From Sediminispirochaeta smaragdinae DSM 11293 (GTDB lineage Bacteria > Spirochaetota > Spirochaetia > DSM-16054 > Sediminispirochaetaceae), in the NCBI RefSeq assembly GCF_000143985.1, contig NC_014364.1, forward strand, positions 2,976,001 through 3,040,000: DNA of 64,000 bases, given 5' to 3'. Below are positions 10,539-39,292 of this stretch, piece by piece. Both the position numbers and the translations under genes were made by a program. Position 1 is the first letter of the stretch. Every line of letters begins with the position of its first letter. The notes beneath the pieces were generated by a model that was given only the letters and a program-made list of their open reading frames with translations, made no database searches and was not told the DNA's origin.

Positions 10539-11651
10539 ATGGCACGACGCAGAATGATCGACCCGTCAATTTGGAGCAATGAACAAGCGCAGTGTTTATC
10601 AACATCGGCGTTCAAGGTGTATGTGTTTCTGATTTCACAGTCCGATGATGAGGGGTACCTGAAGGTATCCCTCGTCATGTGGCCCTCATTGATCAACCCT
10701 GTTGACAGGAGCTACACGAAGGACCAGCTGGTAAATGACCTCAATGAAATACTCTCTTGCGGCTTGGTAGAGGCCTACCGGTTGGGTGATGAGGTCTATG
10801 TGAAACATCCTCATTGGACACTTTACCAGACCATACAGAAGCCTTCAGGAAGCAAATACCCGAAAGATGGGGAAAGAATCTATCGCATAGAGGAATATCG
10901 TAATGATATCGGTACGGTACCACATGAATATGATACCGATACCGTACCGGTACGAGAGGAGTATGATACCGATACAATACCGGTAAACGACCACTCTCAT
11001 TTCGTACCGCCTAAGTTAAGTAAAGAGAAGTTAAGTAAAGATAATACTAAGATACCTTCGGTAGCATCGGCAGAGCCTCAGCCGGAGCCTGGAGAGGCGA
11101 CAAAACCGGCAGAAGAGCCGGAGCCGGAAAGCTCCCCACTTCCCCCACCCGATTCGGAACCCGATCCAGAACCTAAGCCGGAGCCCGAACATGAACCCGA
11201 CATCGAACCGGTTCTTGAGCTTGAATGCCAGGCACCGAAGAAGCGCAAAGCCAGCAAGGGGAAAGCACCTACCGCCGGGAAAGAACCGGCAGACCCGCTG
11301 TACCACTCGATCAAGGATTCCTTCCTGGCTGTTGTCGGGGACTTCTCGAACTGGGGCAAGGAAGGCAAGGCGATCCACGGGATCATCGAGAAATGCTCTC
11401 GCGCCTCACCGGAAGACCCTGCCGGGTGTGCCGAGCGGATGATCGGGGAGTTATGGCGGCTAAAGAATTCGGCGGATCGGTTCTACCGAGATCAGCCCTT
11501 TGTTCCGTCGACCCTCAACGCTTCGGGAATCTGGGACCGGGTAGCCGAGCAGCTGAAGATCACGGCCGATGAGCTGGAAGGTGTGAGGATGTGGGAAGCG
11601 CTTGACCCCTACGGGGTGAGAGGAAAGAGCAAGCAGGCGGTGGGAGGTTAA
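10539..11651 (+). CDS. Phage replication initiator (winged-helix)
   Basis: 370 aa. The N-terminal domain (residues 1-115: RRMIDPSIWSNEQAQCLSTS, VYVFLISQSDDEGY, WTLYQTIQKPSGSKYP) is the winged-helix found in phage replisome organisers. It is followed by an 11-residue repeat (EYDTDTVPVRE/EYDTDTIPVND), an acidic Pro/Glu stretch and a C-terminal domain (about 265-370) that probably contacts helicase machinery. The DNA for the 11-residue repeats forms 33-bp-spaced iterons, so the origin probably lies within the gene as in lambda O. ATG 10539 follows AAGGAC. Confidence 0.8.
   Translation: MARRRMIDPSIWSNEQAQCLSTSAFKVYVFLISQSDDEGYLKVSLVMWPSLINPVDRSYTKDQLVNDLNEILSCGLVEAYRLGDEVYVKHPHWTLYQTIQKPSGSKYPKDGERIYRIEEYRNDIGTVPHEYDTDTVPVREEYDTDTIPVNDHSHFVPPKLSKEKLSKDNTKIPSVASAEPQPEPGEATKPAEEPEPESSPLPPPDSEPDPEPKPEPEHEPDIEPVLELECQAPKKRKASKGKAPTAGKEPADPLYHSIKDSFLAVVGDFSNWGKEGKAIHGIIEKCSRASPEDPAGCAERMIGELWRLKNSADRFYRDQPFVPSTLNASGIWDRVAEQLKITADELEGVRMWEALDPYGVRGKSKQAVGG
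10896..11041 (+). other. Candidate phage replication origin (iterons and AT-rich repeats)
   Basis: Two 24-bp iterons at 10929-10952 and 10962-10985 share TATGATACCGATAC and TACCGGTA, with a weaker third at 10896-10919, all at 33-bp spacing. They are followed by a perfect 14-bp direct repeat AAGTTAAGTAAAGA at 11013-11026 and 11028-11041 and an AT-rich run, resembling an unwinding element. Lying within the initiator gene is the lambda O arrangement. Confidence 0.68.
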
Positions 11652-25600: not shown

Positions 25601-36054
<10,454 letters not shown>

Positions 36055-36058
36055 GCCA

Positions 36059-36292
36059 ATGGGCGATAACGACAAAATCGATATGGTCTTAAGCATTGTG
36101 ACGGAACAAGGCCGGGACATCAAAGAGATCAACAGTAAGCTCACCGACTTTTTCATCAACCGGGAAAGTACGTGCCCTGTTGAGAAACGCCATGAGAAGA
36201 AGATTGAGTACCGAACAGTCATTGTCGGAATGGTGTGCGGTCTTGGTGGTTCGATTATCGGGGGACTACTCCCCGTTGTTTTGGGAGGGTGA
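36059..36292 (+). CDS. Lysis-region membrane protein (holin-like)
   Basis: 77 aa. A soluble helical N-terminus (KIDMVLSIVTEQGRDIKEIN) and one C-terminal membrane segment (VIVGMVCGLGGSIIGGLLPV). This is the shape of XhlA/HemX-type accessory holins. It lies directly before the endolysin-like gene. Confidence 0.68.
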   Translation: MGDNDKIDMVLSIVTEQGRDIKEINSKLTDFFINRESTCPVEKRHEKKIEYRTVIVGMVCGLGGSIIGGLLPVVLGG

Positions 36293-36297
36293 AAAAT

Positions 36298-36777
36298 ATG
36301 ATTATGAGCTGGAATCGACGAGAGAAAAAACTCGTTTGTGGAAACAGAAAAATACCTTGTTCCTGCATTGTTCGCAACGAGCTTAATGGATGGAGACCGC
36401 TGGCAAATAAACCGGCACAGGATGAGGTCGTAAGGTCTCTACCGGAGAATATTCCGTACATGCCACGACCGTTTCCGGTCGGACGTTGGAATGTTGGCAG
36501 ACCAGTGCCTCGATCTCATCCGTATAAAGCCCCCTATTACATCCCGACTGATGCCTTCCAGATGCTGCCGAGATGGGAACTTGACGACGATGGTGGATAT
36601 CTTCGGGAAACGGAGGATATGGTCCGTGACGAAGATTATGGACTTCATTGCTCATCATCAAACACAACACTCGGCTGTATCAGAATCACCAAGGAAAAGG
36701 ATTTGCTCTGGATGGTCGAGAAGATCAATAGAACGCTTGATACAGGAGAAAAGGTGTATCTGGAGGTAGCGGCATGA
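36298..36777 (+). CDS. L,D-transpeptidase-fold endolysin candidate
   Basis: 159 aa. The motif LHCSSSNTTLGCIRI (His117, Gly126, Cys127, Arg129) is the active-site pattern of YkuD/L,D-transpeptidase enzymes (H-x-n-S/T-x-GC-I/V-R). In the lysis block such an enzyme would cut or exchange peptidoglycan cross-links and serve as the endolysin. There is no signal peptide, so a holin is needed. ATG 36298 follows GGGAGGG; a longer upstream frame lacks support. Most phage lysins are muramidases or amidases, so this class is unusual. Confidence 0.68.
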   Translation: MIMSWNRREKKLVCGNRKIPCSCIVRNELNGWRPLANKPAQDEVVRSLPENIPYMPRPFPVGRWNVGRPVPRSHPYKAPYYIPTDAFQMLPRWELDDDGGYLRETEDMVRDEDYGLHCSSSNTTLGCIRITKEKDLLWMVEKINRTLDTGEKVYLEVAA

Positions 36778-36995
36778 AGAAATTCTTCAAAAGTTTTTTC
36801 AATTCCACGAATGACATAAACGAGAGTACGGTTATCGGGTTTGTCGTTGCCATTTTGTTTGTTGCGGCGACCTTCCTGAATATTGTGGATGCCGAAAAAT
36901 ACCAAACGATCGGCTGGGTATTGGTTGGATTGTTTACCGGATCAACGGCGCGAAATATCGTTGACACATTGAAAAGGTCAAAGGGCAATCCCTAA
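36774..36995 (+). CDS. Holin-like membrane protein
   Basis: 73 aa with two hydrophobic segments (STVIGFVVAILFVAATFLNI and TIGWVLVGLFTGSTARNIV), a basic-aromatic N-terminus and a basic tail. ATGA overlap with the endolysin-like gene. The most probable holin of the phage. Confidence 0.72.
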   Translation: MKKFFKSFFNSTNDINESTVIGFVVAILFVAATFLNIVDAEKYQTIGWVLVGLFTGSTARNIVDTLKRSKGNP

Positions 36996-37007
36996 CGAGG
37001 TGAAGGA

Positions 37008-37463
37008 TTGAGATGCGCAAAATTATTAGCATTATCCTTACTCTTTTTGTGTGTTTTTCCGCTGGTTTCCTCCTGGGCACTTACCGCTCAGGAAGAGGCG
37101 ATAGTGGACGAGCTGCAGAATACGATAGTAGAGGCAAAAAGCGAGATACAGAGTATCAAAAGCTCAGCAATGAGTATGAGCGAGCAGTTGAGACGTACGA
37201 GGGAGAGCTCGCAGAGCTTCGAGCGGAAGTGGCAGGATACGGAAAAGAAGCTGGAGGGCTTACAGAGCGAATCGGAGGAACGGAAAGCCAAAGTGTCGGC
37301 ATTGCAGAGCGAGCGGGACGGGCTGAGGAAGGACTATCAAGAGCTCTTGATCTATTGCGAAGGCTTAGAGAGGCGGAATCAGCGGCAGCAGACGGCCCTT
37401 AAAGCCGGGGGCTCTCTCCTGGCCGCCTCAATCATCGTGAATGTACTGCAGGCTCTGTTTTGA
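37008..37463 (+). CDS. Exported coiled-coil protein with C-terminal membrane anchor (spanin-like, frame A)
   Basis: 151 aa from TTG 37008. A textbook signal peptide (KLLALSLLFLCVFPLVSSWA) is followed by about 95 residues of coiled coil and a C-terminal membrane segment (LKAGGSLLAASIIVNVLQAL). This topology, an exported rod tethered at its end, resembles one-piece spanins, though the signal lacks a lipobox. AGGTG lies 5 nt before the TTG. It almost entirely overlaps a second plausible ORF in another frame (37013-37402). Its downstream position after holin and endolysin fits lysis stage three. Confidence 0.62.
   Translation: MRCAKLLALSLLFLCVFPLVSSWALTAQEEAIVDELQNTIVEAKSEIQSIKSSAMSMSEQLRRTRESSQSFERKWQDTEKKLEGLQSESEERKAKVSALQSERDGLRKDYQELLIYCEGLERRNQRQQTALKAGGSLLAASIIVNVLQALF
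37013..37402 (+). CDS. Rz-like i-spanin candidate (frame B, overlapping)
   Basis: 129 aa from ATG 37013, AAGGA 5 nt upstream. A single N-terminal membrane segment (KIISIILTLFVCFSAGFLLG) is followed by charged coiled coil (EYQKLSNEYERAVETYEGEL, AEEGLSRALDLLRRLREAES), the form of lambda Rz inner-membrane spanins. It is nested in frame A apart from its start offset. Both frames have starts, ribosome sites and export or membrane signals, so either or both may be expressed; the ATG frame has the better start. Confidence 0.58.
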   Translation: MRKIISIILTLFVCFSAGFLLGTYRSGRGDSGRAAEYDSRGKKRDTEYQKLSNEYERAVETYEGELAELRAEVAGYGKEAGGLTERIGGTESQSVGIAERAGRAEEGLSRALDLLRRLREAESAAADGP

Positions 37464-37605
37464 TCTTGCTAAGGGGGAAGAGTTGCATCCTTCTCATGGG
37501 AGGATTATAATACTCATGGGTCATTTCGTTGGTTATCTGCATGAAATTCATGTTGATAAAGGAAGTTATATGCAATTTCTTTTTTGGCTAAAGATATATG
37601 AGAAA

Positions 37606-37649: not shown

Positions 37650-38759
37650 ATGAAAGATATCTCAGAAATAAATATGAATCTTGATGAATATAATTTTTAT
37701 ACTTTTCAATTCGTTGATGAACTTAGATATTTTTTTACCCCTGAACAAGTTTTTAATAAAAATGACGCATTTAATAATTTCATTGAAAATTTAAAGGTAA
37801 AATTTAGAGACTGTGGATGGGAAGGAGATGGAGAACTTAATATTGGTTGGCTTCCTCCATTTCTTGATGAATCTATTGATCCTAATTATGGAAATATATA
37901 TTGGCATATTAAACAGGATAATAACGGCTATTCTTTTATTGCATCACCTTCTACTTTTTATTCTTCACGAATATTGGATCAAAATAAAAAACGTTTTATA
38001 GGTAGCAAGATTCTTGAAACTCAATCTATTACGGAAATTACAAGTAAAATACTTATAGGGAAAACCAAAGAGATTCAAGATATTATTAATGATTTAAAAT
38101 TAGAAAGTTATCCAGATATCATTTTAAAAACTATACTCATTAGCATCCAAAGTGATCTCGTTTCATCCTTTATATCTTTTATTGAAGATGTATATTTACA
38201 ATTTATCATTCATTTTTTCGAGGAGAACAATAGAGACAATTTAAGACTAAGTAAAATCGATGCTAAAATTGATATGAAAAGTATTAATTCAGACATTGAT
38301 TATAGTGATAGAGAGCAATCATTAACACTTCGATTAATTATGAAATCTATTTGGGAAAATTTTAAATTTTGGCCATTTAAAGAAAAATATAATGAGATCA
38401 CAAAAGCTATTGATTTCCAAATTGATCAATCATCTCGTGATATGCTTTTTAAGCATGTATATTTACGAAATTGTATCCATCACAAAAATGGACAAGTTCA
38501 GAATGATTTACAAAAAATGTTAGGTAGAAATAATATAAAGGTGTTAAACAATCAAAATAGAGAAATTGTGTTGAAAGAATGGGATTCTATAGATTTATCT
38601 ATAAACGAAATATCAATTTTTAAAGAAAAATTAGAAGACTTCATAAGCAAATATGAGGTACATATTTTACAAAGAATGACAAGTAGATCAATACATCATA
38701 GTTTTAAAAACCCAATTGTCAGGAAATTTGATTTATCAGCAAAGAAAGACACTGATTAA
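37650..38759 (+). CDS. HEPN-type protein, candidate abortive-infection factor
   Basis: 369 aa, very AT-rich compared with the phage backbone. VYLRNCIHHKNGQ holds R273-x4-H278, the RX4-6H catalytic signature of HEPN RNases, placed late in a helical C-terminal domain (about 220-330). The N-terminal 110 residues form another domain (WLPPFLDESIDPNYGNIYWH). Single-gene HEPN proteins of this size are common in phage-defence islands. RBS AGGAGG at 37640. It is flanked by two hairpins with a shared core and followed by a lipoprotein gene, a typical cargo (moron) arrangement. The defence role is inferred. Confidence 0.68.
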   Translation: MKDISEINMNLDEYNFYTFQFVDELRYFFTPEQVFNKNDAFNNFIENLKVKFRDCGWEGDGELNIGWLPPFLDESIDPNYGNIYWHIKQDNNGYSFIASPSTFYSSRILDQNKKRFIGSKILETQSITEITSKILIGKTKEIQDIINDLKLESYPDIILKTILISIQSDLVSSFISFIEDVYLQFIIHFFEENNRDNLRLSKIDAKIDMKSINSDIDYSDREQSLTLRLIMKSIWENFKFWPFKEKYNEITKAIDFQIDQSSRDMLFKHVYLRNCIHHKNGQVQNDLQKMLGRNNIKVLNNQNREIVLKEWDSIDLSINEISIFKEKLEDFISKYEVHILQRMTSRSIHHSFKNPIVRKFDLSAKKDTD

Positions 38760-38830: not shown

Positions 38831-39292
38831 ATGGAAAAAATAATAGAGAAAATAACTGTTAGTTTCTTAATCCTTATTCTATTTTCATGTACTTCATTTC
38901 CAGCGCTTAACCCACCAGCTTCAGCAACACAAACTGGTCCGAGAACAATCATACTTAATGGAGAGGAAATATCTGAAGAAGATGTCGGAGGCTTCATCTC
39001 ATGGTACGGGCAAGACTTTATAGAAGCAGGACCTATTATAGTAGAAGTTGGTTTTTTTGGTGATCCAAACTTAGAAGGATTAGGCTTCATTCTCTATGAT
39101 GGCGGATTCACTGGTGAATTGACTTATTATCGCAGAACAGGATTAGAACATCGTTGGGATTGGGGACCAAATGAAACCGATTATGCCTTTGTGATTCAAA
39201 CTGATGGAACTGGCTTATATTATGATTTTACAAAAGTTAAGAAAGGTAAGAGTACCACCGCCAGTGCGGTCTATATATGCCATAAGCGTTAA
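38831..39292 (+). CDS. Putative lipoprotein, prophage cargo
   Basis: 153 aa. Signal peptide with lipobox LFSC (Cys about 21), then a beta-rich mature domain (ISWYGQDFIEAGPIIVEVGF, LGFILYDGGFTGELTYY, HRWDWGPNETDYAFVIQ). No family recognised. As a lysogen-expressed surface lipoprotein at the cargo end it could act in superinfection exclusion. ATG 38831 follows GAGG. Confidence 0.7.
   Translation: MEKIIEKITVSFLILILFSCTSFPALNPPASATQTGPRTIILNGEEISEEDVGGFISWYGQDFIEAGPIIVEVGFFGDPNLEGLGFILYDGGFTGELTYYRRTGLEHRWDWGPNETDYAFVIQTDGTGLYYDFTKVKKGKSTTASAVYICHKR

Follow-up and report, generated by a model that had tools for sequence, protein, structure and literature searches.

Near-complete dual coding of two membrane proteins in spirochaete prophage lysis cassettes, with a putative spanin-like role

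Two overlapping reading frames, here denoted A and B, were identified in a prophage within the window, i.e. the whole 64,000-nucleotide stretch of DNA analysed (G000:C1:2976001-3040000 of a single-contig genome of 4,653,970 bases). The sequence comparisons described below point to A/B as a dual-coded pair of the lysis cassette with a spanin-like role, a combined statement to which we assign a probability of about 60%. The dual coding as such appears genuine with near certainty. Two full-length membrane proteins are rarely double-coded on the same strand with starts and membrane signals confined to one short stretch, and such cases are normally difficult to defend; the availability of about 28 diverged natural homologues renders this one testable. 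No description of this pair was found in the open-access literature; lysis, holin and spanin are absent from the main text of a study of 38 Treponema prophages (PMC11144348). Gene callers are biased against overlap, as noted in PMC6139136, and will probably annotate only one of A and B in most cases.

Results and discussion

Reading frames and predicted layouts

ORF A (37008..37463, + strand) opens with TTG and encodes 151 aa, and ORF B (37013..37402, + strand) opens with ATG and encodes 129 aa. B is read in the +2 frame of A, hence A lies in the +1 frame of B. Both begin nearly at one point, and the double-coded stretch amounts to about 390 bases. A preliminary description of this DNA had proposed two overlapping ORFs of different topology with starts 5 nt apart. 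The spacing was verified (TTG at 37008 vs. ATG at 37013), and the different layouts were recovered by hydropathy and AlphaFold2 (AF2).

The signal peptide region of A (37008..37085, + strand) contains the hydrophobic stretch LLALSLLFLCVFPLV, as judged by hydropathy, is modelled by AF2 as a helix over residues 2-16, and shows an SPI-like site near SSWA/ALTAQ and no lipobox. It overlaps, in the other frame, the predicted N-terminal membrane helix of B (residues 2-25; 37016..37087, + strand; hydropathy and AF2). Residues 27-150 of A (37086..37457, + strand) are modelled as one continuous helix, in which a periplasmic coiled coil leads into a C-terminal membrane helix; the hydrophobic portion GSLLAASIIVNVLQALF (37410..37460, + strand; mean KD 1.87) is located past the end of B. 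The AF2 monomer of A, which comprises the signal helix and this single long helix, has a mean pLDDT of 89.3, and that of B (helices 2-25, 34-87 and 95-126) is of moderate confidence with a mean pLDDT of 68.5. A fold search with the model of A matched no PDB entry, the outcome to be expected of one long helix. The region of A/B gave no Rfam match, and the reading as an RNA element was therefore dropped.

Among the 28 aligned homologues, A starts with a hydrophobic signal that carries an SPI-like site, continues as a long coil and closes with a C-terminal hydrophobic helix whose last residue is usually K or R. B displays an N-terminal hydrophobic helix, a coil and a short polar tail, and the layout of an i-spanin, an N-terminal TM segment followed by a periplasmic coil, was found by hydropathy and AF2 in its 28 aligned homologues. 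The topologies of A and B are thus predicted, from hydropathy and AlphaFold monomers, to be constant among the loci.

Parts of a segment that takes in the 3' end of A and the following 120 bp or so (window 37380-37587) recur as solitary copies of about 30-200 bp, at eight places in total in the same genome and at six in a congener. Copies include G000:C1:2254893, 559225, 2350540, 2256434 and 4501841 as well as G001:C3:117146 and C13:158284. The segment may represent a prophage end or a recombination site. At L006/L002 (G000:C1:2350466), a terminase-like ORF is joined in frame to the final 51 codons of A, apparently through a deletion that brought two prophage genes together.

Conservation of both frames among homologues

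The genome carries three full-length A/B copies, including that of the window, along with fragments of A, and one further full-length copy resides on an IMG/VR contig. In the three closest copies, A is 86-89% and B 86-88% identical, and both frames are open. Both are likewise open over their full length in L008, from another family of the class, at identities of 39% (A) and 33% (B). A profile search across the phylum reached the remote loci L020, from another class, and L023, which share the same relative frame, the same layouts and two open frames; when 245 genomes of the family of L023 were searched by profile, 22 loci with E < 1e-8 (L023's included) and several weaker ones were obtained. 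An independent search of 393 genomes with a B profile arrived at the same sites as A in G386, G325, G384, G322 and G253, and added L069 and L076, where A was then located in the other frame. Weak profile matches in large ORFs (400-1500 aa) were mostly coiled-coil noise and were left out, and pattern scans were precluded by the high variability of alignment A7. Scans of viral contigs returned close copies only (at least 80% identical), among them L001 (86-89%) as a new one. The first scan of genome contigs, with A1, found nothing; the second gave two Treponema loci, both found previously and one truncated. A tblastn search with five queries detected no relatives among 50,697 phage records.

The loci represent at least four families of the phylum, and the identity of A drops to about 15% among them. 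Homologues that keep only one frame open had been named in the preliminary description as the observation that would speak against the pair. None was encountered: both frames are open in all 30 loci (window counted), with 8-24 stops in the third frame. That is, the +2 frame stays open along A in real homologues and the +1 frame contains many stops. L039 and L054 show in-frame internal shortening that preserves both frames, and in L055 A is longer (247 aa) and accommodates B entirely within its first part.

Chance and selection

One alternative holds that only A is a gene, and that B is open by accident of the codon and amino acid composition of A and is seemingly conserved via the DNA of A. 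A is indeed the longer ORF, its coiled coil is the clearer one, and its helix is modelled with high confidence. Moreover, an open frame B is not improbable when L049 (P = 0.33), L051 (P = 0.12) or L052 (P = 0.10) are considered singly, where the stop-count test is weak. Across the 30 loci, however, the overlap contains zero stops in frame B, compared to a mean of 0.9-5.2 per locus expected upon synonymous codon shuffling within A, a result toward which the delimitation of the overlap by the open run introduces a slight bias.

Selection was addressed with a counting test of the OLGenie kind. Pooled over seven pairs and 919 codons, ωA (dNN/dSN) is 0.447 (0.356-0.566) and ωB (dNN/dNS) is 0.639 (0.510-0.800), intervals that are somewhat optimistic because two of the seven pairs were drawn from the four close copies. 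Applied to neighbouring genes with a single frame, in nearly the same set of pairs (2980 codons), the test gives a pseudo-ωB of 1.128 (0.974-1.329). For the A-synonymous rate, the values are 0.34 (overlap) and 0.83 (neighbours). Differences at codon positions 1/2/3 are distributed as 127/148/175 in the overlap vs. 425/305/1077 in the neighbours (chi-square P ~ 2e-17). Both frames are thus conserved and under purifying selection across the phylum.

Two further comparisons concern the protein encoded by frame B. In 22 of 23 pairs, some of them with an identity of A near 15%, its similarity is higher than under a synonymous-shuffle null; it should be noted that this null breaks shared descent and is fair for saturated pairs only. 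The hydrophobicity of the N-terminal helix of B lies above the null given by the signal peptide of A and local synonymous codon usage (P < 0.05) in 23 of 24 loci. The start of B is also conserved next to that of A. Against this combined evidence, an A-only locus is considered very improbable. A chance origin of B was rejected on the basis of the stop counts, the selection tests, the helix null and the control with neighbouring genes. Near-complete double coding in which each frame carries export or membrane signals, as had been proposed, is strongly supported by the open frames, the selection tests and the helix null.

Start codons and ribosome sites

In the window, a Shine-Dalgarno-like GAGGT (36997..37001, + strand) is found 6 nt ahead of the TTG of A, and a second box, AAGGA (37003..37007, + strand), is read from the sequence 5 nt ahead of the ATG of B. 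Starts were assigned in all loci as the nearest start codon with a Shine-Dalgarno-like box and are hence predicted ones. On this basis, the start of A minus that of B equals -2 in seven loci (ATGTG, A at ATG and B at GTG), +4 in 12 loci (ATGNATG-like, B first), +7 in four loci, and -5 in the window group and L055; L020 (-14) and L032 (+34) have the largest offsets. All values are congruent modulo 3. In most loci the two starts overlap or are adjacent, 2-7 nt apart, with a single Shine-Dalgarno site ahead of both. The earlier proposal of a separate ribosome site per ORF therefore applies to the window, where two boxes can be assigned, but not to most homologues, which share one.

Lysis-cassette surroundings

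Upstream of A/B in the window, a 77-aa protein with a coil and a C-terminal hydrophobic helix (36059..36292, + strand) is XhlA-like by layout only and has no family match. It is followed by an L,D-transpeptidase (YkuD)-like protein (36298..36777, + strand), a candidate endolysin with a PF03734 match of E 2.9e-4 and 21.9 bits against a cut-off of 23.4. A 73-aa two-helix membrane protein (36774..36995, + strand), without a significant family, is presumed to be holin-like from its size and position. The order is thus YkuD-like protein, two-helix protein, A/B, in a prophage that carries podovirus-like head-tail and tail proteins. Treponema-type loci carry, in this order, a Peptidase_C39-like endolysin (E 3.4e-7), a small membrane protein, A/B, a DUF2730-like protein (E 7.5e-4, under the cut-off) and Phage_Mu_Gp27 (E 1.8e-17). 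Phage Mu is arranged as gp22 SAR endolysin, gp23 i-spanin, gp23.1 o-spanin, gp24, gp25 releasin (DUF2730), gp26 and gp27, and comparison of this order with the cassettes of the Mu-like Treponema prophages indicates that A/B occupies the spanin slot. A/B accordingly has the lysis-cassette location expected of spanins. L008, which has no recognisable cassette neighbours, and the truncated L056 do not bear on function.

Several variations of the surroundings were observed. The cassette of L045 (G488:C30) has no small holin-like gene between the endolysin and A/B. In L020 (G095:C135, reverse-complement 917-1474), the gene directly before A/B encodes a different type of candidate endolysin, which on visual inspection resembles a zinc peptidase, and the small membrane protein comes after A/B rather than ahead of it. 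Elsewhere in the window, a 1218-aa tail fibre (31790-35446) with collagen-like GPTGPTG repeats toward its C-terminal part was noted together with a subsequent tail fibre assembly gene, and a lipoprotein-like ORF (LILFSC) at 38831-39292, downstream of the cassette, with an AT-rich 369-aa ORF (37650-38759) in between.

Functional assignment

In 27 of the 30 loci, neither a lipobox in A or B nor a lipoprotein candidate within 1.5 kb was found. The exceptions are a clear lipobox in B of L057 (LSSCC) and weak matches in B of L032 and A of L037. An o-spanin is an outer-membrane lipoprotein with a lipobox, and neither A nor B conforms to this; of the two marks of a unimolecular spanin, an N-terminal lipobox and a C-terminal TM segment, A has the second alone. 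As neither protein has a conserved lipobox, A/B has no counterpart of the outer-membrane link that known spanins provide, and the lysis function is one that we infer. A PHROG search with B gave weak Rz-like matches (phrog_1152 in five of 28 B proteins; best spanin E 6.7e-5), which may reflect the common layout of TM segment and coil. The nested spanin arrangement put forward in the preliminary description consequently holds in part: cassette position, A in the +1 frame of B like Rz1 of Rz, and the weak Rz-like profile matches agree with it, but the conserved lipobox does not materialise.

A/B could be a classical two-component spanin after all if B (or A) were lipidated at looser spirochaete lipoboxes that escape recognition. 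Besides the matches in L057, L032 and L037, a cysteine is present within or behind the hydrophobic segment of many B proteins. This cysteine is missing, however, from B of L008, L036, L040 and L069, and the residues past it in the window protein are still hydrophobic, so that we consider lipidation improbable as a general explanation. B of L057 is encoded at reverse-complement 1491-1862, and one branch may have a lipidated B.

Alternatively, A and B may both be real lysis proteins that act at the inner membrane, as a holin partner, an antiholin or a helper of endolysin release. Both are predicted inner-membrane proteins without a lipobox, the DUF2730-like neighbour belongs to the family of the Mu releasin (PMC9239132), and in L045 no small membrane protein precedes A/B. 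Still, the long periplasmic coils and the spanin slot better suit an envelope-spanning role, and most cassettes already have separate holin-like and DUF2730-like proteins. Releasins have an N-terminal TM segment in N-out, C-in orientation, a cytoplasmic domain and the Pfam domain DUF2730; this domain was absent among the matches listed for A or B, and neither protein was assigned to the releasins. An inner-membrane role is the main rival, albeit an unlikely one.

We therefore favour a spanin-like A/B pair, most likely a lipoprotein-free two-component lysis complex; the designation refers to position in the cassette and does not make A/B a proven spanin. Ribosomes loaded at one site would start in either frame and thereby supply two inner-membrane proteins at a fixed ratio. 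A would be of type I, with its signal peptide removed, a C-terminal anchor and its C-terminus in, and B of type II, with an N-terminal anchor and its N-terminus in. The long periplasmic coils of A and B would pair and, following cleavage of the peptidoglycan by the endolysin, would target the outer membrane much as spanins do in other Gram-negative phages, though with no lipoprotein subunit. That both frames are translated, where the two proteins localise, that they pair and that they disrupt the outer membrane are all points that we infer.

More tentatively, A/B might define a lipoprotein-free spanin-like class of spirochaete phages, in which type I and type II inner-membrane coiled-coil proteins are made at a fixed ratio and near-whole double coding is kept phylum-wide. 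This reading, which we rate as somewhat less likely than not, also covers one ribosome site feeding two overlapping starts and the persistence of the pair in Mu-like as well as podovirus-like prophages. The double coding of A/B would in itself demonstrate that overlapping lysis genes can remain stable over very long times. Moreover, A/B would offer a clean system for the co-evolution of two frames and for one ribosome site serving two, and a pointer to how phages break open spirochaete envelopes.

Comparison with known systems

Like lambda Rz/Rz1, A/B is a lysis-cassette pair on one stretch of DNA in which the partner is read in the +1 frame of an N-terminally anchored coiled-coil protein, and B is similar to Rz in layout. 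In contrast to Rz/Rz1, the starts of A and B are separated by 2-7 nt in most loci, each protein is full length, and the partner A has a signal peptide and a C-terminal TM segment instead of a lipobox. For embedded pairs, PMC6139136 gives an o-spanin start at 0.4-0.5 of the i-spanin length in about 70%. Mu gp23/gp23.1, the spanin subunits of that phage (PMC9239132), share with A/B the position after the endolysin and before the genes for a DUF2730 protein and the terminase small subunit; unlike A/B, the Mu pair overlaps only partly (10979-11365 and 11226-11567), and gp23.1 carries the lipobox LTGC.

The unimolecular spanin gp11 of T1 resembles A in combining an export signal at the N-terminus with a TM domain at the C-terminus. 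Conversely, A has no lipobox, is accompanied by a second protein in the other frame and forms an alpha-helical coil, whereas the periplasmic domain of gp11 is predicted to be mainly beta (PMC6139136). In the same paper, Kongari et al. 2018 suggest that an inner-membrane protein of type I (N-out, C-in), anchored by a C-terminal TM segment, could serve as i-spanin. A has this predicted layout; the suggestion comes without an example in that passage, and no outer-membrane partner emerged here. Overlapping spanin genes are well known. What sets A/B apart from known spanin pairs is the combination of near-coincident starts, near-complete mutual overlap and no lipobox, and, relative to the surveyed spanin genes of phages, the overlap of A and B is the more extreme.
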